Positions 33,820 through 50,603 of a DNA stretch of 64,000 bases are shown here, in pieces. Both the position numbers and the translations under genes were made by a program. Under the pieces are notes generated by a model, which had not been told where the DNA came from, searched no databases, and saw only the letters and a program-made list of their open reading frames with translations. Each line of letters begins with the position of its first letter. Position 1 is the first letter of the stretch. The stretch spans positions 62,001 to 126,000 of the forward strand of contig NZ_CP031311.1 of the NCBI RefSeq assembly GCF_004799685.1, in the 5' to 3' direction. Origin of the DNA: Halobellus limi. GTDB taxonomy: Archaea; Halobacteriota; Halobacteria; Halobacteriales; Haloferacaceae.

Positions 33820-35157
33820 ATGACGCAAGACAACCAACCCCAACTGTACAGCCTCTCACGCCGAAAAATGCTCGCCGGTCTCGGTGCCGTCGGCCTCGCC
33901 TCCGCGGGCGCCGGTCTCGGTACCTCCGCGTACTTCAGCGACGAGGAGAGCTTCGAGAACAACACGCTGACCGCGGGGACGCTCGACCTGCGTGTCCGCT
34001 ATGAGGCCTCCTACGACGGCGACGGCGCGGTCGAGAATCTGGCCGACGAAGCGATGGGGACCCAGGACGGCGACCCCGCGGGGATGTTCTACGACCTCGA
34101 CGACGTGAAGCCGGGCGACTCCGGGCACGTCGAGTTCTGTTTCGACATCGTGGACAACCCCGCCTACGTGTGGGCGTGCGGTGACCTCTCCCAGGACGAG
34201 AACGGAATGAACGAGCCCGAGATGGCGGTCGACGACACGCCCGATCTGGGCGAACTCGGCGACAGCATCGATGCACGGCTCGTCTACTGTGACGAGGACG
34301 ACGGCGAGCTCGTCGAGGGCGAGGAGATCGTCTCCGGCTCGCTCGTCGACGTGATCGCGGCCATCTCCTCGGGTGCGGCGCTCGACGGCGACGGCGTCGC
34401 CGGGCTCTCCCCCGGCGAGCAGTCCCCGTACGACGACGTGGTCGTCGGAGACGATGAAGAATACATCACCGGCGCGTGCGTCTGCCTGTTCTGGGAGATC
34501 CCCTACGAGGTCGGCAACGAGATCCAGTCGGACTCGCTGACGATGTCCTTCGAGTTCCACGCGCTGCAGGCCCGCCACAACGACGGCACCACGAACCCCT
34601 GCGCGCCGTCCATCGTCACCCGGACGGGCGAGGGCTTCGCCAAGCAGCAGGAGTTCGCCACCGAGCAGGAGACCTCCTTCGCCCGCGGCCGATACGGCAA
34701 CAACGGCCCCTCCGGCTCGTGGGAAGTCGCCGTCGGCCCCGACGTCGGCAGCGCCGACACGGCCAACTACGTCTGGACGCCCGGCGACACGGTCCCGTTC
34801 AGCTACGCCTACGACGGCAGCGGGAACGCCTCGTTCACCCTCGACGGCGTGAACGTCGGCAGCGCGATTCCCGCGCCGAGCGGGAAGCTCGCGATCACGA
34901 CGAAGGCCGACGAGGCCACCGTCAGCGTCGCGAACCTCCAGCTCGACCTCGACGGCGTCCCGGTGACCCTCAGCGGCCCCGACGCGATCTCGGCCAGCAA
35001 CGACGGCCCCGACCGCGAGGTCACCTACCTCGTCTTCGACACCGACGGCGCGGACGTCGCGAACGCGTTCGCGATCTCCGGCGACGTCACCGTCGACGTC
35101 CAGGGCGACTACCCCGGCAGCGAGGAAGGCGTCGCGTTCGACATCAGCGTCGAGTGA
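33820..35157 (+). CDS. TasA/SipW-type secreted protein with choice-of-anchor W domain
   Basis: A 445-residue secreted protein. The N-terminus combines a Tat motif (SRRKMLAGLG) with the SipW-type signature ending in TSAYFSDEESF, then NTLTAGTLDLRV as in TasA-family matrix proteins. The TasA-like beta domain shows DVKPGDSGHVEFCFDIVDNP and later ITGACVCLFWEIPYEVGNEI and ARHND. The C-terminal half, from EGFAKQQEFATEQETSFARG, matches a choice-of-anchor W type domain. It is the first gene of a cluster that contains its own signal peptidase (40999). No VWA domain is inserted here, unlike the next two. Its final codons are repeated after the stop. Confidence 0.88.
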   Translation: MTQDNQPQLYSLSRRKMLAGLGAVGLASAGAGLGTSAYFSDEESFENNTLTAGTLDLRVRYEASYDGDGAVENLADEAMGTQDGDPAGMFYDLDDVKPGDSGHVEFCFDIVDNPAYVWACGDLSQDENGMNEPEMAVDDTPDLGELGDSIDARLVYCDEDDGELVEGEEIVSGSLVDVIAAISSGAALDGDGVAGLSPGEQSPYDDVVVGDDEEYITGACVCLFWEIPYEVGNEIQSDSLTMSFEFHALQARHNDGTTNPCAPSIVTRTGEGFAKQQEFATEQETSFARGRYGNNGPSGSWEVAVGPDVGSADTANYVWTPGDTVPFSYAYDGSGNASFTLDGVNVGSAIPAPSGKLAITTKADEATVSVANLQLDLDGVPVTLSGPDAISASNDGPDREVTYLVFDTDGADVANAFAISGDVTVDVQGDYPGSEEGVAFDISVE

Positions 35158-35213
35158 GTGTCGCGTTCGACAGCAGCGTCGGGGGTCGCGTTCGGCAGCG
35201 GTGTCGAACGAGC
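35131..35213. repeat. Duplicated 3' end of the first TasA-like gene
   Basis: GTCGCGTTCG followed by AC/GC-AGCG occurs at 35131 (inside the gene, ending in its TGA), 35160 and 35185, steps of 29 and 25 bases. The extra copies lie after the stop and before the palindromic element at 35220. Confidence 0.75.
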
Positions 35214-35219
35214 GACCTC

Positions 35220-35305
35220 TGATACTGATTACTCTCACTTGTTACCGCCGAGCGCCACCCTCGTTGCCGGCGCTCGGTGGTACGAGACGAGAGTAATCAG
35301 TATGA
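35220..35305. repeat. Palindromic element, copy B
   Basis: The best-preserved copy, 86 bp. Outer arms TGATACTGATTACTCTC and GAGAGTAATCAGTATGA match in 16 of 17 bases when folded; inner arms TACCGCCGAGCGCC and GGCGCTCGGTGGTA match in 13 of 14. The loop is ACCCTCGTTGCC. It lies between two genes of the secreted-protein cluster. Confidence 0.9.
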
Positions 35306-35387
35306 GACCCTCCGCGACCGGCCTGCGGAGGTGAGATACGACCCGACAACACCAACCCGAAATCACCGATCACACGGACCACAACCA

Positions 35388-37100
35388 ATGACCAACGATC
35401 CCAAATCCTACACGCTATCGCGCCGCAAGATGCTCGCCGGAATCGGCGTCGTCGGGCTCGCCTCCGCGGGCACCGGCCTCGGCACGACCGCGTTCTTCTC
35501 CGACGAGGAGGAGTTCGTCGACAACTCGCTCGTCGCCGGCGAACTCGACCTGCTCGTCGACTGGCAGCAGACCTACGACTTCGGAGACGGCCACCAGTTC
35601 GTCAGCGCCCACCCCGACCACGACGGCGACGGCGAGCAGTCCATCGCGGCCGACAACGACGCCGGGCAGATCCGCTACAGCGACTTCCCGGACGAGGAAG
35701 ACGAGGACAGCAACGGCGCGAACATCCCGGTGCTGAACTGCGAGAACATTCCGCCGCTCTCCGAGGCGAACTTCGGCGTCGACCCCGTCACCGGCGAGGC
35801 GATGGAGACGCTGGTACAGTTCACCGACGTGAAGCCCGGCGACTCCGGCGAGATCACCTTCTCGCTGCACCTCTGTGACAACCCCGGCTACCTCTGGATG
35901 CAGGCCGACAACGTCTCCGAGTCCGGCGGCGTCCACGCCGAGCCCGAGATGGCGGTCGACCCCGACAACCTCGGCGACCTCGCCGGCGCGATCCAGGTGA
36001 CGCTCTGGTACGACGAGGACTGCGACAACGTCTACGACGGCGCCGATCCGGTCGACATCATGCTGACGCTCGACTTCTCGGGGTCGATGCTGTACGACCA
36101 GTACGGCGGCGTCGTCAGCGACGACGAGATCACGATCAACGGGACCACCTACGACGAGACGACGAAGATCGACCTCGTCGAACTCGGGACCCGCCAGTTC
36201 GTCGACTACCTGCAGTCCCAGAACGCCGACGCCAAGGTCGGCGTCGCGTACTTCGACGGCGAGGGAAGCGACGACACGGAACCCCGGACCGGCGTCCTCC
36301 AGGCGATGACGACGGACCTCTCCGTCGTCGACGGCGCGCTGACCGGACTCCGACAGAAGCTCGCGAACGTCGTCAGCGGCGGTCCCGGCTCGACGCCCTT
36401 CGACGGCGACGGCGACCCCGACCCGTTCTCGAACGCGAACTCGATCGCGACGGGCACGTACATCGGCGAGGGCGTCGACGACGCTCAGGACGAACTCGCG
36501 GCGAACGGGCGCAGCGGCGCGGAAAAGCGCAACATCGTCCTCTCGGACGGCGAGTCGTTCAACGGCGGCGGGAGCACCTCGTTCGCGTCCCCGCAGGACG
36601 CCGCGGACGACGCCCGCGCGGCCTCGCCGTCCCCGGAGACGGACGTCTACACCATCTCCGTCGGGAGCGCCAACGACGGCGTGCTCCAGGCGATGGCCGG
36701 CCCCGCCGGCGGCGCGGGCGGCGACCCGTCGTTCTTCAACGACGTCGACGATCCGCTCAACGTCCCGAGCGTGTTCGGGAACCTCGCGGCCCAGACGGTC
36801 GCCGAGAAGGTCATCATGCAGGACACGCTCGGTAACGTCCTGGCCGCGCTGGCCGACGGCAACGGCGTCCCGCTCGACGGCAACCGCGCGACGATCTACG
36901 ACGAACTGAACGACGACCCGACCGACCCAGACCGCGAAGCGTTCCGCGGCGACGGCGTGATGCACTGCGTCGCCCTCGCGTGGGAGCTCCCGTTCGAGGT
37001 CGGCAACGAGATCCAGGGCGACACGCTCGGCTTCGATCTCGGCTTCTACACCGAGCAGGAGCGCCACAACGACGGCTCGGGTCCCGAACTCGCGGCCTGA
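35388..37100 (+). CDS. TasA/SipW-type secreted protein with nested VWA domain
   Basis: A 570-residue secreted protein. The signal SRRKMLAGIG and the signature TTAFFSDEEEF precede LVAGELDLLVDWQ. The first TasA-like part ends around LWYDEDCDNVYDG, then a VWA domain starts: MIDAS motif DFSGS (LTLDFSGSMLYDQYGG), then KVGVAYFDG, and NIVLSDGESFN. After about 300 residues the TasA-like fold resumes: GVMHCVALAWELPFEVGNEI and EQERHNDG. VWA domains bind metal and partner proteins, so this may be an adhesive or assembly subunit. The ATG at 35388 (MTNDPKSYTLSRRK) is chosen as the Tat start. Confidence 0.9.
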   Translation: MTNDPKSYTLSRRKMLAGIGVVGLASAGTGLGTTAFFSDEEEFVDNSLVAGELDLLVDWQQTYDFGDGHQFVSAHPDHDGDGEQSIAADNDAGQIRYSDFPDEEDEDSNGANIPVLNCENIPPLSEANFGVDPVTGEAMETLVQFTDVKPGDSGEITFSLHLCDNPGYLWMQADNVSESGGVHAEPEMAVDPDNLGDLAGAIQVTLWYDEDCDNVYDGADPVDIMLTLDFSGSMLYDQYGGVVSDDEITINGTTYDETTKIDLVELGTRQFVDYLQSQNADAKVGVAYFDGEGSDDTEPRTGVLQAMTTDLSVVDGALTGLRQKLANVVSGGPGSTPFDGDGDPDPFSNANSIATGTYIGEGVDDAQDELAANGRSGAEKRNIVLSDGESFNGGGSTSFASPQDAADDARAASPSPETDVYTISVGSANDGVLQAMAGPAGGAGGDPSFFNDVDDPLNVPSVFGNLAAQTVAEKVIMQDTLGNVLAALADGNGVPLDGNRATIYDELNDDPTDPDREAFRGDGVMHCVALAWELPFEVGNEIQGDTLGFDLGFYTEQERHNDGSGPELAA

Positions 37101-37262
37101 ACGACGAGCACGACCCACGGCGGCGGTAACGGGGGTTCGACTCCCCCGGTGGGTTCTCTCCCTCCATCGAGGACGGGAGGACAGCGTCCGGTGCGGCCTC
37201 ACCTCCCGTCGGGGAGCGGCGAGACGGCACCGCTCGCAGACCACCGAACGGAAACCAAGACA

Positions 37263-38714
37263 ATGACACACGACGACGAACTACCGCTGTACAACCTCTC
37301 CCGGCGCCGCGTCCTCGCGGGCCTCGGAGCGGTCGGCATCGCCTCCGCCGGGACCGGCCTCGGTACCAGCGCGTTCTTCTCCGACGAGGAGGAGTTCGCG
37401 GACAACACGCTGCAGGCCGGGACGCTCGACCTGAAACTCGACTACAAGGCCACGTACCTCGGCGGGCCGGGACGCCTCGACGCCGTCAGGGCGATGGGCT
37501 ACCCCGACGCCGAGGAGATCCTCGTCGACGAGGAGCCGACGGGTCGGTACCTCCTCGCGCAGGCCCCCTCGCCCGCCGATCTGCAGGAGTGGGAGGATCT
37601 CGTCCAGGGCGAGGGGTTCCCATTCTGTAGCTCCGAGGCCGACGAGTACCTCGAGAACGGCGACGGCATCCCGATGTTCACCATCTCGGACGTCAAACCG
37701 GGCGACTCCGGCGAGGTGACGGTGAGCATCCACATCTGCGACAACCCCGGTTACCTGCGGATGATCGGTGAGCTCACGGGCAACGAGGAGAACGGCCAGA
37801 CGGAACCCGAGATCGACGCGGAGGGCGAGGACACCGACGGGAGCGGCGAACTCGCCGACGCCATCGAGGTCTGCGTCTGGTACGACGAGGACTGCGACAA
37901 CGTCTACGAGCCGACCGGCACCGGCCAGCAGCAGGAACTGGAAGTCGCGCTGGTCTCCGACGTCTCCGGGTCGATGGGCGGCTCGGCGCTCGCGTCGCTG
38001 AAGACGGCCGCGACGAGTTTCGTCGACAACCTCTCCTCGCCCGACGAGGCCGCCGCGATCTCGTTCAACACCGGCGCCGCGACGGATCAGGAACTGACGA
38101 CCGACTACCAGGCCGTCAAGGACGCGATCGACGACTACAGCGCCGGCGGCGGCACGTCCATCGCGGCCGGGATCGACGAGGGCGCGGACGAACTGCTCAA
38201 CGGGACGAACGCCACGCCCGGCGCGTCGAAAGTGATGATCCTGCTGAGCGACGGCAACTCGAACGCGTCGGCTGCAACGTCGGCGGCCAACGCGGCCAAG
38301 ACTGCAGGAATCCGGCTCTTCACCGTCGCGCTCGGAAGTGCGAACACGTCGCTCCTCCAGTCGCTCGCGAGTTCGCCGGACGACGCGTTCGTCGCCCCGG
38401 ACCCGGCCGACCTCGACACGGTGTACGCCGAGATCGCCCAGATTGTCCTCGGCGGCGAACAGAAGATCGCCGAGGGGACGATGGCGGAGGTGTTCGCCCA
38501 GCTGTCGGACGGCATCGTCCTCGACGGGGACAGACAGGAAGACGGTCTCCAGCCGTACCCGGGCGCGACGACCCAGTGCATCGGTTTCGAGTGGACCCTC
38601 CCCACAGACGTCGGCAACGAGGTCCAGTCCGACTCGATCGGCTTCGACTTCGGCTTCGAGGTCGAGCAGTCGCGACACAACGACGCGCCGTTCGCGACGC
38701 CCGAGGCGGAGTAG
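37263..38714 (+). CDS. TasA/SipW-type secreted protein with nested VWA domain, paralogue
   Basis: A 483-residue paralogue of the gene at 35388. The Tat signal SRRRVLAGLG and the signature TSAFFSDEEEF precede LQAGTLDLKLDYK. The TasA-like part includes SDVKPGDSGEVTVSIHICDN and VWYDEDCDNVYEPTG. A complete VWA domain follows: MIDAS DVSGS (VSDVSGSMGGSALAS), the threonine loop GGGTSIAAGI and the aspartate in LLSDGNSN. The chain then returns to TQCIGFEWTLPTDVGNEVQS. All MIDAS positions are present, so metal binding is expected. It follows the previous gene by about 160 bp. Confidence 0.9.
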   Translation: MTHDDELPLYNLSRRRVLAGLGAVGIASAGTGLGTSAFFSDEEEFADNTLQAGTLDLKLDYKATYLGGPGRLDAVRAMGYPDAEEILVDEEPTGRYLLAQAPSPADLQEWEDLVQGEGFPFCSSEADEYLENGDGIPMFTISDVKPGDSGEVTVSIHICDNPGYLRMIGELTGNEENGQTEPEIDAEGEDTDGSGELADAIEVCVWYDEDCDNVYEPTGTGQQQELEVALVSDVSGSMGGSALASLKTAATSFVDNLSSPDEAAAISFNTGAATDQELTTDYQAVKDAIDDYSAGGGTSIAAGIDEGADELLNGTNATPGASKVMILLSDGNSNASAATSAANAAKTAGIRLFTVALGSANTSLLQSLASSPDDAFVAPDPADLDTVYAEIAQIVLGGEQKIAEGTMAEVFAQLSDGIVLDGDRQEDGLQPYPGATTQCIGFEWTLPTDVGNEVQSDSIGFDFGFEVEQSRHNDAPFATPEAE

Positions 38715-38939
38715 TCGACGGACACTGCGAACTGACCTCGGTTCCGTGTGGCGCTGCGGTGCCGCGCGGCCGCCAGTTCCGGAAGAGTGCGGGCGGTAAC
38801 GACGCCGTACGGCGGAGTACGGGCGTCGTATCGGTCGCGAAGCCGCTCCATACCTATCACCGCCAGCGCCGTATCGCCCACAGAACACGGATCGGGTACC
38901 GATCCACTCACCGCCCCGGCGTATCCGGGACAACTGACA

Positions 38940-39749
38940 ATGACACTCACACGTCGGGAACTGCTGACGGGAATCGGCGGCGGCGCGCTCGCCGTCGGGG
39001 GGCTCTCCCTCCGCCGGGACGCGCCCCGCTTCTCCCAGTACACCTATGCCGCACCGGACGACGACACCGACGACCGACGGCTTCGCATCGCCTGGTACGA
39101 AAAATACAACGGCGGCTCCGTCGCGAACCACGCCGGAACGAACGACGGCCTCGAGACGACGCTCGACCCCGACAGCGGGCCCGCGTACGTCGACGAGGCC
39201 GCCTTCGTGACCGACGCGACCGGCCCGGTCCTCTCCGTTGGCAACGTGCTCCCGGGAGACGCGGGTACGCTGGTCGTCGGACTCGAGGTCGTCGACGACG
39301 GCGGTGCGGAACCCCTCGACGTGTGGTTCCGCGCGTCGCTGACCGACGACGGCGAAAACGGCGTGAACGGCCCCGAACGGGCCGCCGGGGACACCACCGA
39401 AAGCGACGGCGAACTCGACGAGGACGCCGTCGTCGAGATGTGGCTCGACGGGTCGCCGTTGGGGAGCTGCAACGGCGTGCGGGAGTTCGACGAGACGCTC
39501 GAATCGCCGCTCGTTTCTCCATCTCCCTTCGCCGAGGCGTTCGCACCGACGGCCGATGCCGGCGACGACGAGGGGCTGCTCGCCATCGAGTGTCTCGCTC
39601 CGGGCTCGCTGCGGTGCGTCGCGCTCCGCTGGGAACTCCCGGTCGAAACGGGGAACCGATCGCAGGGGGACTCTCTCGGCTTCGACTTCTCCTTCGTCGG
39701 CGGCGCCTGCGACGGCGACAGTCCCTTCCTCGTCGGAGGTGCGCAATGA
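38940..39749 (+). CDS. Divergent Tat-secreted TasA-like protein
   Basis: A 269-residue protein that starts MTLTRRELLTGIGGGALAVG, a Tat motif without the usual FFSDEE signature (it has QYTYAAPDDD). The beta domain keeps the family ends: GNVLPGDAGTLVVGLEVVDD, then CVALRWELPVETGNRSQGDS and LGFDFSFVGGACDG. It is shorter than its neighbours and has no VWA domain, so it may be an anchor, a cap or a minor subunit. Its stop overlaps the next ATG (ATGA), so translation is coupled. Confidence 0.85.
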   Translation: MTLTRRELLTGIGGGALAVGGLSLRRDAPRFSQYTYAAPDDDTDDRRLRIAWYEKYNGGSVANHAGTNDGLETTLDPDSGPAYVDEAAFVTDATGPVLSVGNVLPGDAGTLVVGLEVVDDGGAEPLDVWFRASLTDDGENGVNGPERAAGDTTESDGELDEDAVVEMWLDGSPLGSCNGVREFDETLESPLVSPSPFAEAFAPTADAGDDEGLLAIECLAPGSLRCVALRWELPVETGNRSQGDSLGFDFSFVGGACDGDSPFLVGGAQ

Positions 39750-41002
39750 TCCTGAGTCGCCGCCGCGTGCTGGCGGCGCTGGCCGCCGCCGGCGGTGCGG
39801 GCGCGCTCACGGGGACCGGAACGGCCGCGGTGTTCCGGGACGCCGAGCGGCTCGACGCGTCGGTCACGGCCGGCACCGTCGACCTCGTCGTCGAGTACGA
39901 ACTGCTGAGCGGCCCCGGCACGGACGGCCCGGCCGGGAGCGGCACCGTCGACGGTCCGCGGGTTCGGCTCCCGGTCGACTCCCTCGGTGCAGACGGCGAC
40001 GCGGGGAGTATGCTCCTCACGTTCTCTCTCCCGCAGCGGGGCGACGCGGTCAACAACCCCGCGGCGCTGTGGCTCGCGACCGACTGTCCCGTCCCCGCCT
40101 CGACGGCGCTGGCCGAAGCCGTCCGGCTGACGCTGTCGTACGCCGACTGCGACTCCGGGGCTCCGGTCGAGGAGATCCTCAGCGGCTCGCTCCGGGCGGT
40201 CGCCGACGGCCTCCGCGACGGGTACCGCGTCGACGGCGACCCGACCACCCCGGGGATCGACTGTCTGACCGACGAGGTCTGCCTGCTCGTCGAGTACGAA
40301 CTCGCCGGCTACGTCGGGAGCGAGACGGTCGACGTCCCGCTGTGGTTCTCGGCGGTCCAGTGTCGACACACGACCCCGGAGAACCCCTTCGCGGGCCGGA
40401 ACACGGCTCCGTGTCCGCCCGCGGACCCCTGTCCGTGCTGCCGGACGCTCGGCAAACTGGAGTTCGAGGACGGCACGCAGGCCGGTCTCGACGACAGCCA
40501 CGCCGAACCCGGCACGTACGCGTTCACCGAGGGCGACACCGACTACGGCCTCGAGATCTACGACACGGCGGAGAAAGACGGCGAGCGCGAGACGGTCGGC
40601 GTCGCCTTCCGACTGGTGAACCTCGCCGACGGCGACGCCGCGGTCCCCGGCCTCTGTACGGTCGCCGTCAAGGGCGGCCCCGGATTCGAGCAGTACGACC
40701 GCGATGACGGCACTGCAGCCGACACTGCGGGGCTCCCCGGAAGCGACGCCGACGGCCTCGTCTACGCGCCCGAGGGGAAGGGAATCAGCCACGTCACCGT
40801 CTGCATCTGCACCACCGAGTCGGAATCGGACTGCCCCGGGTGCACCGATCCCTCGCTCACGAACGGCGGGGGCGGTGGGACCGGGGACGGCGGGAACGGA
40901 AACGATGGCAACGGTGGAGCCGGAAACGGCGGAAGCGGCGGGACCGGAAACGAAGGCCGCGGCGGGAAACCGGAGACGGATCCGGCCGGAGGTGACCGAT
41001 GA
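39746..41002 (+). CDS. Secreted Cys-rich TasA-like protein with glycine-rich tail
   Basis: A 418-residue protein. The signal SRRRVLAALAAAGGAGALTG ends near GTAAVFRDAERLDASVTAG, an altered form of the FSDEE signature. The TasA-like core ends with VCLLVEYELAGYVGSETVDV and QCRHT. A cluster CPPADPCPCCRTLGKLEFED marks a second domain of about 130 residues (GERETVGVAFRLVNLAD, then VCICTTESESDCPGC) that is Cys-rich. The C-terminal 45 residues are Gly/Asn repeats. It may be crosslinked or act as a flexible extracellular part. The ATG overlaps the preceding stop, and its stop overlaps the signal peptidase start. Confidence 0.85.
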   Translation: MILSRRRVLAALAAAGGAGALTGTGTAAVFRDAERLDASVTAGTVDLVVEYELLSGPGTDGPAGSGTVDGPRVRLPVDSLGADGDAGSMLLTFSLPQRGDAVNNPAALWLATDCPVPASTALAEAVRLTLSYADCDSGAPVEEILSGSLRAVADGLRDGYRVDGDPTTPGIDCLTDEVCLLVEYELAGYVGSETVDVPLWFSAVQCRHTTPENPFAGRNTAPCPPADPCPCCRTLGKLEFEDGTQAGLDDSHAEPGTYAFTEGDTDYGLEIYDTAEKDGERETVGVAFRLVNLADGDAAVPGLCTVAVKGGPGFEQYDRDDGTAADTAGLPGSDADGLVYAPEGKGISHVTVCICTTESESDCPGCTDPSLTNGGGGGTGDGGNGNDGNGGAGNGGSGGTGNEGRGGKPETDPAGGDR

Positions 41003-41928
41003 TCCGCATCCCGACGCCGTCGATGCCGAGTGCCGGAAAGCTGCTCGCGACGCTCGTCCTGCTCGCGGCGATCTCGCCGTTCGTCGTCTTCGCGGTCCCG
41101 CAGGCCGTCGGGGCCGACGAGGGGTTCGTCGTCCTCTCCGGGAGTATGGAGCCGGCGCTGTCGCCCGGCGACGTCGTGATCGTCGACGCCGCCGCGCCCG
41201 TGCGGGTCGGTGACGTCATCACCTACCGGACCGGCGGCGACAGCGTGCCGACGACTCACCGCGTCGTCGGCGAACGCGACGGCGGCTACGAGACCAAGGG
41301 CGACGCCAACGAGAACGTCGACGCGGGCCTGGTCGGCCCCGAGGCGATCATCGGGCGGACCGTCCTCGTGATCCCGTTCGTCGGTCACGTGATCCTGTGG
41401 GCGAACACGCCCGTCGGATACGTCTCGCTCGTCGTCGGCCCGCTGGTGCTGCTCGGCGTGAGCGAGCTGTTCGCGTGGGCCCGTCGAGAGCCCGGAGTCG
41501 ACGCGTCCGGGGAGACGAGACACCGGGCGGCCGGATCAGACCCCGAGCGCGATCGGTCTGCGACCGACGCAGCCGGTGCAGACGTCGATACCCCCGCTGC
41601 GGGCGTCAGAGCGTCCGGAGCGGATCCGGAGGCACCCGCACCGCAGTCGGCCGGGACCGTCGCGGTCGCCGCGGTCGATCTGAAGCTCACGCTCCTGGCG
41701 ATGGCGGCGCTGTTCGCCTACGCCGGGTGGAACGTGTACCGCGAGTTCGCCGTCGCGGCGGCTCCGAACCCCGTCTCGGTCGGCGCGCTCACGGGCGGAC
41801 TGCTCGGCCTGCTGTTCGCCGGATCGGTGACGCTGACCGCGTGGCGGGCGAGCCGGGCGGCCGCCGCGCCCTCTTCGACTCCGGCTCTCACGGACGGGAG
41901 CGGGGACGTGGAGGTGCGCGATGAGTAA
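40999..41928 (+). CDS. sipW: ER-type (SipW-like) signal peptidase I
   Basis: A membrane signal peptidase of 309 residues. The N-terminal helix (LLATLVLLAAISPFVVFAVP) precedes the catalytic Ser motif VVLSGSMEPALSPGD. The basic residue is His (VPTTHRVVG) rather than Lys, as in archaeal, eukaryotic and SipW-type peptidases, followed by ETKGDANENVD with the catalytic Asp. Helices near 128-152 and 230-290 suggest several membrane spans, with an acidic insertion near 160-215. Position between TasA-like genes implies that it processes them, as SipW does for TasA. The gene overlaps both neighbours (ATGA). Confidence 0.93.
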   Translation: MIRIPTPSMPSAGKLLATLVLLAAISPFVVFAVPQAVGADEGFVVLSGSMEPALSPGDVVIVDAAAPVRVGDVITYRTGGDSVPTTHRVVGERDGGYETKGDANENVDAGLVGPEAIIGRTVLVIPFVGHVILWANTPVGYVSLVVGPLVLLGVSELFAWARREPGVDASGETRHRAAGSDPERDRSATDAAGADVDTPAAGVRASGADPEAPAPQSAGTVAVAAVDLKLTLLAMAALFAYAGWNVYREFAVAAAPNPVSVGALTGGLLGLLFAGSVTLTAWRASRAAAAPSSTPALTDGSGDVEVRDE

Positions 41929-42886
41929 GACGCTCGCGGTCGCCTGCGCGCTGCTCGTGCTGTTCGCCTCGGCGACGGCGGGGTTCGCGGGCGGACTGTC
42001 CGTCGCCCTGCTGTCGGACGAGGAGTCGGTCTCGGTCGGTTTCAGCGCCGACGTTCCGCGCCCCGACGCGGTCGTGCTTGACGACGGCTCGGACGAACCG
42101 CTCGGCGTCTCCGCCTTCGGTCTCGCGACCGGCGCGGGACCGACCCCGCTCGGCGCGGGAGCACCGACCGACGACGGTGGTAACGCCACCGATCGAAACG
42201 GGACGGTCGGCGGAAACGCGACTGTACTCGGAAACGAGACCGCGATCGGAAACGAGTCGGTCCCGATCGACGGGGGAACCGACGGAAACGACACGGCCGC
42301 TGGCGACGGGCCGGTCCCCGAACCTGTCGACGGCAACGGGACGAGTCCCGTGTCCGGCGGAGACGACGGTTCGACCGCCGACGCTGGCCCGCAGGCGAAC
42401 GACGCGGCTCCGGACGAAGAGACGGCCCCCGACGACGACGCCGCCTCGGCCGAGGAACCGATCGACGGTCCGGCCTCCGAATCGGATGAGTCGGACGACT
42501 CCGCCCCCCAGACCGAGACCGACGACGGCGAGACGTCCGACGGCGACAACGCGTCTTCGCCGGACGGTGACAGCGGCTCCGACGGTTCGGAGCCGACGGA
42601 CGGTTCCGGATCCGAGCGATCCGACGACGGAGCGACGGATCCCGACGGCACAGCGACTGCGACCGAACCGAGCCACGACGGCACCGAACGGTCGTCCGAC
42701 TCCGATACCGAGTCCGAGTCGGAACCAACTGCCGGTGACGACGAGGAGCCGGAGTCGGTATCCGAGGGCACGGGCGGGGCGGACTCCGGGCGGTCCGCCG
42801 ACTCCTCCGACGAGTCGGACGGTGACGCCGACGGCGGCGATGCCACCACCGACGACGCGTCGACGGACGGTTCGGATCCGGTCTGA
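41921..42886 (+). CDS. Acidic, sequon-rich secreted stalk protein
   Basis: A 321-residue protein. A hydrophobic start (MSKTLAVACALLVLFASATA) leads to GGLSVALLSDEESVSVGF, which resembles the FFSDEE signature of its cluster mates. The rest is low-complexity Asp/Ser/Glu/Gly. Residues about 85-145 hold seven N-x-S/T sequons (NATDRNGTVGGNATVLGNET, then GNES, GNDT, GNGT), with another (DNAS) further on, so heavy N-glycosylation is likely. No C-terminal membrane anchor is visible. It probably forms an extended extracellular part of the structure. The start overlaps the signal peptidase stop by 8 bases. Confidence 0.82.
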   Translation: MSKTLAVACALLVLFASATAGFAGGLSVALLSDEESVSVGFSADVPRPDAVVLDDGSDEPLGVSAFGLATGAGPTPLGAGAPTDDGGNATDRNGTVGGNATVLGNETAIGNESVPIDGGTDGNDTAAGDGPVPEPVDGNGTSPVSGGDDGSTADAGPQANDAAPDEETAPDDDAASAEEPIDGPASESDESDDSAPQTETDDGETSDGDNASSPDGDSGSDGSEPTDGSGSERSDDGATDPDGTATATEPSHDGTERSSDSDTESESEPTAGDDEEPESVSEGTGGADSGRSADSSDESDGDADGGDATTDDASTDGSDPV

Positions 42887-43023
42887 TGCCTATGCGGGCC
42901 GGACGAATCCCGCTCTTTCTCCCGGGAACCGCCCCCGACGCACCCCGACGGAACGCGCTCGCGGTTCTCGGTTACCTCCTCGGAGTGAGTCTGGTCGCCG
43001 AGACCCTCTCTGCGCTCCTGTGA
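42886..43023 (+). CDS. 45-residue small membrane protein closing the cluster
   Basis: The frame starts at an ATG sharing its first base with the last base of the preceding TGA, and ends at 43023. It begins MPMRAGRIPLFLPGTAPDAP and has one C-terminal hydrophobic helix (NALAVLGYLLGVSLVAETLS). Overlapping stop and start argues for translational coupling and a real gene. A small helper or anchor in the assembly is a guess. No family is recognised. Confidence 0.6.
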   Translation: MPMRAGRIPLFLPGTAPDAPRRNALAVLGYLLGVSLVAETLSALL

Positions 43024-43103
43024 CGGTCCGTTCGTCCACGTCGACGCACCCTCGGCGCTCGATCTGGGGCGACGCGACTGTCGGAAGTGACGTGTCCGAG
43101 AAG

Positions 43104-43176
43104 TAGTCCCACCAGGATTCGAACCTGGGTCGAAGCCCCCAGAAGGCTTCAGGATTGGCCGCTACCCCATGGGACT
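43104..43176 (-). tRNA. tRNA-Gln (anticodon CTG)
   Basis: A 73-base cloverleaf on the minus strand. The acceptor arms AGTCCCA and TGGGACT pair perfectly, the anticodon stem AAGCC/GGCTT encloses the loop TTCTGGG, giving anticodon CTG, and the T arm is CCAGGTTCGAATCCTGG. No intron is present and CCA is not encoded. It lies after the secreted-protein cluster. Confidence 0.92.
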
Positions 43177-49712: not shown

Positions 49713-50603
49713 ATGACGGACGAAAAGGGGAACCCGAACGCGCCCGACCGTCCGGACCCGGCTCGGCGCGACGACGGACCGTCGGGCGAGACGGCGACGG
49801 ACCCCGGCGACGGATCGGATCCGGTCGACGACGGATCGGATCGGGACGGGTCGGGACCGACTGACCGCTCCGGCGTCGCCGACGGTGAAGAGACGGCCCG
49901 GATCCCGCCCGGCGTCGCCGACTCCCGCCGCAGGTCCGACGGTCGCCCCCGACCGCAGCCCGGAAGCCGGGCCGCCGACCGCGACGCGGGTCTTCTGACG
50001 CGCTTTCGGACGGCACAGAGCGGGCCGCTGCTCTTCATCCGCGAGACGCTCTACAGCGCGCTCGCCGTCGCCGCCGTCGGCTTCCTCCTCTTCGCGATCA
50101 GCGGCGTCTGGCCCCCGATGGTCGCCGTCGAGAGCGGGAGTATGGAGCCGGAGATGTCCCGCGGCGACCTGATCTTCGTGACCGAGCCCCACCGGTTCAC
50201 GCCGGAGTACGCCTACGGCGACACGGGCGTCGTGACGGTCGACATCGGAAGCGAGGAGGGCTACCGGAGCTTCGGCGGCAACGGCTCCGTGGTGATCTAC
50301 GACCCCCCCGACCGCGCCGGCTCGCCGATCATCCACCGGGCGCACTTCTACGTCGAGGAGGGCGAGAACTGGTACGACCGGGCGAACCCCGACTATATGA
50401 ACGCGAACGACTGCAGTCAGCTCTCGAACTGCCCCGCTCCGCACGACGGGTTCATCACGAAGGGCGACGCGAACGCGCGGTACGATCAGGCGAGCAACAT
50501 CGCCGGCCCGGTTCGCTCCGAGTGGATCCGCGGGACCGCCCGGATCCGGATTCCCTACCTGGGGTACGTCCGGCTCAAGCTGGCCGGAGCGATCGCGGCC
50601 TGA
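49713..50603 (+). CDS. sec11: Type I signal peptidase, Sec11-type
   Basis: A second S26 peptidase, 296 residues. An acidic, disordered N-terminal tail of about 100 residues precedes one helix (TLYSALAVAAVGFLLFAISG), then the catalytic Ser motif VAVESGSMEPEMSRGD, the His motif SPIIHRAHFYVEEGEN and the Asp motif DGFITKGDANARYDQ. It is probably the general secretory signal peptidase. It diverges from the PolD gene and differs from the peptidase at 40999, which has extra membrane helices. Confidence 0.92.
   Translation: MTDEKGNPNAPDRPDPARRDDGPSGETATDPGDGSDPVDDGSDRDGSGPTDRSGVADGEETARIPPGVADSRRRSDGRPRPQPGSRAADRDAGLLTRFRTAQSGPLLFIRETLYSALAVAAVGFLLFAISGVWPPMVAVESGSMEPEMSRGDLIFVTEPHRFTPEYAYGDTGVVTVDIGSEEGYRSFGGNGSVVIYDPPDRAGSPIIHRAHFYVEEGENWYDRANPDYMNANDCSQLSNCPAPHDGFITKGDANARYDQASNIAGPVRSEWIRGTARIRIPYLGYVRLKLAGAIAA

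Follow-up and report, generated by a model that had tools for sequence, protein, structure and literature searches.

The stretch of DNA analysed here, hereafter the window, comprises 64,000 nucleotides of Halobellus limi contig NZ_CP031311.1 and carries, at positions 33820-43023, eight consecutive plus-strand genes (g1-g8; starts refined from open reading frame (ORF) data), which probably form a haloarchaeal locus for TasA/SipW-type surface fibres, re-engineered for export through the twin-arginine translocation (Tat) pathway. The proteins encoded by g1-g5 have a common core related to TasA behind twin-arginine starts; the operon also encodes a signal peptidase, and a tRNA-like minihelix lies between g2 and g3. 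An earlier, sequence-only reading of the window had proposed the cluster at this place and on this strand, where we indeed find it.

The TasA-related core and its twin-arginine starts

The common core of g1-g5 is evident from tblastn: the g1 core matches g2 and g3 in two halves, with a von Willebrand factor A (VWA) domain between them (approximately residues 215-398 in g3), and g4 matches the core of g1 orthologues with an E value of 1e-10. A direct match of the core profile to Bacillus subtilis TasA (the query sequence being identical to that of PDB entry 8aur) scores 25.3, which exceeds all 200 shuffles of TasA (maximum 22.1), and three conserved motifs occur in the same order in both. This weak direct match is made firm by a bridge through 20 small archaeal SipW proteins, of which ten belong to archaea other than Halobacteria: the core profile matches the bridge set with probability 99.8 and an E value of 5e-30 over 173 columns, and the set in turn matches B. 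subtilis TasA with probability 96.7 and an E value of 4e-10 in local alignment, and with probability 97.5 over 167 columns in global alignment. Judged by this transitive profile comparison, the core is a true relative of TasA, and the homology claimed by the sequence-only reading holds for this part of the subunits. A search of PDB sequences with the g1 profile returned no TasA, just two marginal sialoadhesin chains (E 0.015) that we take as chance, and no homologue on plasmid DNA turned up in tblastn with B. subtilis TasA.

The window proteins were also searched against family models. The SipW-type signal of the TasA/CalY (camelysin) family (TIGR04088, cut-off 19 bits) is present in g1, g2 and g3 (33.7, 20.3 and 27.2 bits, respectively), is borderline in g5 (17.5 bits for the protein and 21.3 bits in a genome scan) and is absent from g4. 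Thus, the three signatures fused to Tat motifs that had been read from the sequence are confirmed, and of two further, weaker ones, that of g5 survives as a borderline case, whereas g4 has a Tat start without the signature. In the whole 3.75 Mb genome there are four matches to TIGR04088, and because all of them fall inside the cluster (g1, g2, g3 and g5), their clustering is not due to chance. A match of g1 to PF12389 (26.1 bits) is confined to the N-terminal signature, and the camelysin metallo-endopeptidase function implied by the name of that family was rejected; a SopE_GEF match in g5 was disregarded (18.4, below the cut-off of 25).

All five subunits fit the twin-arginine rule, with an Arg-Arg pair near the N-terminus (residues 5-6 in g4), a hydrophobic residue soon after it and a long uncharged stretch. 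The pair is invariant in 30 orthologues of g1 and in 27 VWA orthologues; it is found in 143 of the 143 listed haloarchaeal SipW-type starts (some loci overlap, so that not all of these are independent), as against 0 of 11 such starts in archaea other than Halobacteria. Export of g1-g5 by Tat is, therefore, a well-supported prediction, and the Tat motifs that the earlier reading had seen on the SipW-type subunits prove both invariant and specific to haloarchaea; this distribution suggests that haloarchaea moved an older system of the general secretory (Sec) type onto Tat. Given that haloarchaea generally favour Tat export, its use here is expected rather than astonishing.

Among 292 sampled Halobacteria, 141 have the SipW-type signal (TIGR04088) and 112 have relatives of g1; Haloferax volcanii, taken as a control, matches TIGR04088. 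Three other Halobellus genomes (loci L014, L015 and L046) have the eight genes in the same order, as does, in more divergent form, L047; moreover, a plasmid of Halorientalis marina, which belongs to another family, carries a corresponding eight-gene run down to the final 45-residue ORF, a related cluster is located on a megaplasmid of Halorubrum ezzemoulense, and Halorubrum-like genomes have the order g3-g1-g2-g4-g5-peptidase. Conserved synteny in other haloarchaea, which had been set as a check on the proposal, is thus found in Halobellus, in Halorubrum-like genomes and on plasmids. Two observations were made alongside: a TatA/TatE-family gene (L096:6178-6432) lies approximately 2 kb upstream of the H. 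marina plasmid cluster, and g5 of Halobellus rufus (L015:10001-11145) is split over two frames, through either a sequencing error or a real break.

Embedded modules, signal peptidase and partner proteins

The first subunit, g1 (33820-35157, +), has a Tat and SipW-type signal, a TasA-like core (approximately residues 31-266) and a C-terminal choice-of-anchor W domain (271/281-445; NF041928, 77.1 bits), the last of which had been missed by the sequence-only reading. Structure models were built on orthologues from fetched loci, of the g1 type (set A1) and of the VWA, or g3, type (set A2). In the g1 model, the C-terminal domain is predicted to adopt a concanavalin-A-like lectin fold (VIA Z 14.2 over 152 residues at 2.6 A); the 50 VIA rows listed for this model hold lectins only, and the lack of TasA among them does not exclude TasA.

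Both g2 (35388-37100, +) and g3 (37263-38714, +) have a Tat and SipW-type signal and a TasA-like core interrupted by a VWA domain (PF00092, 25.8 and 87.9 bits, respectively). The motifs of a metal-ion-dependent adhesion site (MIDAS) are DFSGS in g2 and DVSGS in g3, plus SDG motifs; across the VWA orthologues, Asp233, Ser235, Ser237 and Thr298 of the MIDAS are invariant, and Asp330 is conserved in at least 90%. On the strength of these residues, g2 and g3 are read as having VWA domains with an intact MIDAS inserted into the core. The neighbours of the g3 model are VWA structures, with the pilus adhesin SpaC first and the tip protein Mfa5 among the top rows. Of the remaining subunits, g4 (38940-39749, +) has the core related to g1, and g5 (39746-41002, +) follows its weak SipW-type signal and TasA-like core with a Cys-rich region (14 Cys) and a Gly-rich tail. 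The VWA subunits and the Cys-rich, Gly-tailed subunit of the earlier reading therefore correspond to g2 and g3, and to g5, respectively.

The peptidase, g6 (40999-41928, +), is an archaeal/endoplasmic reticulum (ER)-type signal peptidase I with a C-terminal extension: it scores 84.5 bits against TIGR02228 (cut-off 51.85 bits) and has the Ser-His catalytic motifs SGSMEP and TTHR. Against the Bacillus SipW equivalog, NF046067, it reaches 66.5 bits for a cut-off of 190 and so falls outside that family. In most fetched clusters, the peptidase gene ends or follows the subunit run. Elsewhere, a gene that resembles signal peptidases and has a long Pro-rich extension at the N-terminus is found 7 kb downstream of the cluster (window 49713-50603), and the peptidase gene of genome G136 (L063:1830-2959) is split over two frames, by a sequencing error or a real break.

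The operon closes with two partners. The first, g7 (41921-42886, +), is an acidic, sequon-rich secreted protein (25% acidic residues, 8 sequons) with a Sec-type start and a SipW-like motif, ALLSDEES; its orthologue at L063:974-1837 is above the TIGR04088 cut-off, with 23 bits. The second, g8 (42886-43023, +), is a 45-residue single-pass membrane protein with one hydrophobic segment, and a 45-residue ORF occupies the same place in L014, L015, L046, L047 and the Halorientalis plasmid. There are four stop-to-start overlaps, running across g4-g8. The ER-type peptidase, the acidic sequon-rich protein, the short membrane protein at the end and the overlap of the last five genes had all been described correctly from the sequence. 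Directly after the cluster is a tRNA-Gln gene (window 43103-43176, -), which is also present in L014, L015 and L046; the locus could be an insertion site linked to this tRNA gene.

The tRNA-like minihelix

The interval between g2 and g3 contains a tRNA-like minihelix of the t-element type (37113-37154, +), with the sequence ACCCAC-GGCGGCGGTAA-C-GGGGG-TTCGACT-CCCCC-G-GTGGGT, in which an acceptor stem (A37113-C37118 with G37149-T37154) is stacked on a T-arm (T-stem 37131-37135 with 37143-37147; loop TTCGACT, 37136-37142). It is followed directly, upstream of g3, by a C-rich/G-rich hairpin (37155-37182, +), and a CCCC...GGGG hairpin of this kind recurs in relatives. The window minihelix scores 38.6 bits against a covariance model of the element, and the same element precedes 53 of 143 SipW-type subunit starts across the Halobacteria in loci fetched by protein, usually with the T-stem 44 to 95 nt ahead of the ATG; further copies are found at L014:7386, L015:7423, L046:7083 and L047:12763, with dozens more besides. 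A separate C/G hairpin without a T-arm (CCTCCGC...GCGGAGG) is present between g1 and g2, upstream of g2 (window 35309-35331), and is conserved with changes in L014 and L046.

Both stems are preserved through compensating changes. Of 125 sites picked by their loop alone, 90 have a fully paired T-stem, a count that includes loci fetched with the RNA model; the T-stem count on set A3 is biased, as its elements were chosen by pairing, and the loop-first count and a swap control on the acceptor are fairer. For elements with an unusual 3' acceptor strand, this control finds the exact complement upstream in 11 of 17 cases, compared with 4% when the upstreams of other elements are used; for the usual 3' strand, the figures are 34 of 79 and 1% (examples of the pairs being ACCCGG/CCGGGT, ACCTGG/CCAGGT, ACTCAC/GTGAGT and ACTCGC/GCGAGT). 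With the covariance model, strong matches are found in many families, and the great majority of the 30 best-scoring loci precede Tat-SipW, g4-type or Taf-like genes. The H. limi genome itself has two strong matches, namely, the window copy and one of 41.8 bits in a provirus-like region (G000:C1:2202674, approximately L136:6675); since the latter precedes a 340-codon ORF without a Tat start, the minihelix is not exclusive to genes for Tat subunits.

The minihelix has the hallmarks of a t-element: a covarying acceptor stem and T-arm, the latter with a TTCRANY loop. A t-element of the same build (CGTGG-TTCGAGT-CCACG-AGTCGGC) precedes 5S rRNA in the H. limi genome. Neither ARAGORN nor Rfam calls the window minihelix, and both miss even this known 5S t-element, which would explain why minihelices before protein genes go unseen. 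In the openly accessible literature that was searched, we met with no report of t-elements located between protein genes; a scan for bacterial promoters and terminators gave nothing above chance. In H. volcanii, RNase P and RNase Z act on t-elements (PMC4326828) and, for that reason, processing of the operon mRNA by these enzymes appears the likeliest role for the minihelix, an analogy to which we give slightly more credence than doubt. With the same restrained confidence, we suggest that, throughout haloarchaea, Tat-exported fibre subunits, whether TasA/SipW-type or Taf-like, may widely have t-element-like tRNA mimics as a cis-acting RNA in their mRNAs, where the enzymes of tRNA maturation would cut the operon transcript into separately dosed messages and so control the stoichiometry of the fibre. 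Two other ideas were dropped: that the element derives from the adjacent tRNA-Gln gene, being a remnant of it or an att site, as the sequences differ and the element recurs with covariation before many genes; and that it marks internal operon genes only, as some first genes carry it (L048, L049 and L050).

A proposed fibre system and its relation to known ones

In the mechanism that we propose, the g1-g5 subunits would fold in the cytoplasm before crossing the membrane by Tat, and g6 would cut them just ahead of the aromatic-x-Ser/Thr-Asp motif. Outside the cell, they would assemble by donor-strand exchange, as TasA does, with the compact cores making up the shaft, g2 and g3 serving as metal-dependent adhesins and the lectin-like domain of g1 binding a sugar or glycoprotein. 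The partners g7 and g8 may anchor or nucleate the fibre, g7 being an acidic, glycosylation-prone protein. Cleavage of the minihelix by RNase P/RNase Z would give g3 and the genes downstream of it their own mRNA end and dosage.

Several findings weigh against this picture. Whereas TasA has a single domain, the subunits here are large and have several, and the cluster shows no obvious candidate for a small major subunit. The models are of middling quality, with predicted local distance difference test (pLDDT) values of 77 for g1 and 71 for g3; Foldseek does list the TasA fibre (8aur_A) for the g1 model with probability 1.00, at a template-modelling (TM) score of 0.40 by target, and either beta domain of g1 could be the matched part. 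The fold energy of the minihelix is not distinctive by itself (z -0.9), and at least two further signal-peptidase matches occur in the genome (window 49713-50603 and C1:1181354). The size of the subunits and their adhesin modules, together with the absence of a dedicated assembly machine from the cluster, would suit Tat-exported TasA-like proteins that do not polymerize at all and are soluble or S-layer-bound adhesins or lectins, merely trimmed by the peptidase; we regard this as rather unlikely, because their homologue TasA makes fibres by donor-strand exchange (PMC9674648) and several paralogous cores in one operon suit a multi-subunit fibre. The additional peptidases could mean that housekeeping Sec11-type enzymes do the processing, g6 being a redundant copy and the SipW label having no functional meaning; however, the peptidase gene keeps its place at or after the end of the subunit run in most clusters despite differing gene order, and it travels with that run on plasmids, which makes such redundancy improbable.

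For the minihelices, a role in DNA rather than RNA has to be considered, namely, as att-like recombination sites that shuffle the subunit genes: the gene content of the clusters varies, and the idea gains support from the fact that T-arm sequences are common integrase targets. Covariation in both stems, the tight position before the start codon and the close match to the architecture of the 5S t-element speak for RNA processing instead, and we assign the recombination role only a small chance. The cluster might also be a copy of the known Taf fimbriae and nothing more. Taf denotes Tat-fimbriae, reportedly described in haloarchaea by the Pyatibratov group; the NCBIfam families TafA/C/E/F match tandem Tat-type haloarchaeal proteins, all below the equivalog cut-offs. 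The overall plan is alike, with tandem twin-arginine subunits, a nearby signal peptidase and the same tRNA-like leader in Taf-like loci. Yet none of g1-g8 matches a Taf model at E values up to 1, and Taf-like starts read GTGAFTSVxADR in place of the SipW signature, so that identity with Taf seems quite unlikely and a fibre locus of the TasA/SipW kind remains the reading that we prefer. As a side observation, tandem genes starting MKRRxxL...GTGAFTSVxADR form Taf-like clusters in L137, L138, L139, L140 and L147, several of them after the same RNA element, and L138-L140 have a signal peptidase nearby.

Among biofilm scaffolds built by donor-strand exchange, TasA fibres serve as the reference, and in Bacillus their export is understood to run through Sec. 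If Tat export is true, the subunits would fold first, yet would have to open outside for donor-strand exchange; moreover, with VWA and lectin-like modules built in, the fibres may bear their adhesins along the shaft. Should the tRNA-like leader be processed, tRNA-maturation enzymes would have a new role in the control of mRNA, and the annotation of many haloarchaeal operons would benefit.

The tapA-sipW-tasA operon of B. subtilis resembles the cluster in its homologous subunit core, SipW-type signal signature and in-operon peptidase, and differs from it in using Sec; here, there are Tat starts, five paralogous subunits, VWA and lectin-like modules, an acidic partner, a small membrane protein and a tRNA-like element. 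The archaeal protein AbpA of Pyrobaculum calidifontis is a small subunit with a single domain and is not known to carry a Tat motif. No AbpA chain was listed when the g1 profile (set A1) was searched against PDB at E values up to 1, a search that missed TasA too. As cited in PMC9674648 and PMC9715654, AbpA forms TasA-like bundling pili and resembles the cluster in being a TasA-like archaeal fibre subunit with donor-strand assembly, a likeness drawn by description only. SpaC of sortase pili and Mfa5 of type V pili, the top neighbours of the g3 model, likewise embed a VWA domain with a MIDAS in a fibre subunit; the host domain here is TasA-like, and there is no sortase or lipoprotein signal. The haloarchaeal 5S t-element (PMC4326828) shares the 5-bp T-stem and TTCGANT loop, after which comes a 7-nt acceptor strand, whereas the minihelix stands between or before protein genes, is followed by the C/G hairpin and has a variable insert between acceptor and T-stem. 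The view of the sequence-only reading that the layout of the cluster is not one already described was overstated: NCBI labels the pieces in related loci ('SipW-dependent-type signal peptide-containing protein', 'vWA domain-containing protein' and 'signal peptidase I'), TasA-like archaeal pili have been published and NCBIfam holds Taf families. Overall, haloarchaeal Taf fimbriae and TasA-like archaeal pili are already known; what is new is TasA/SipW chemistry on Tat, with built-in adhesin modules.

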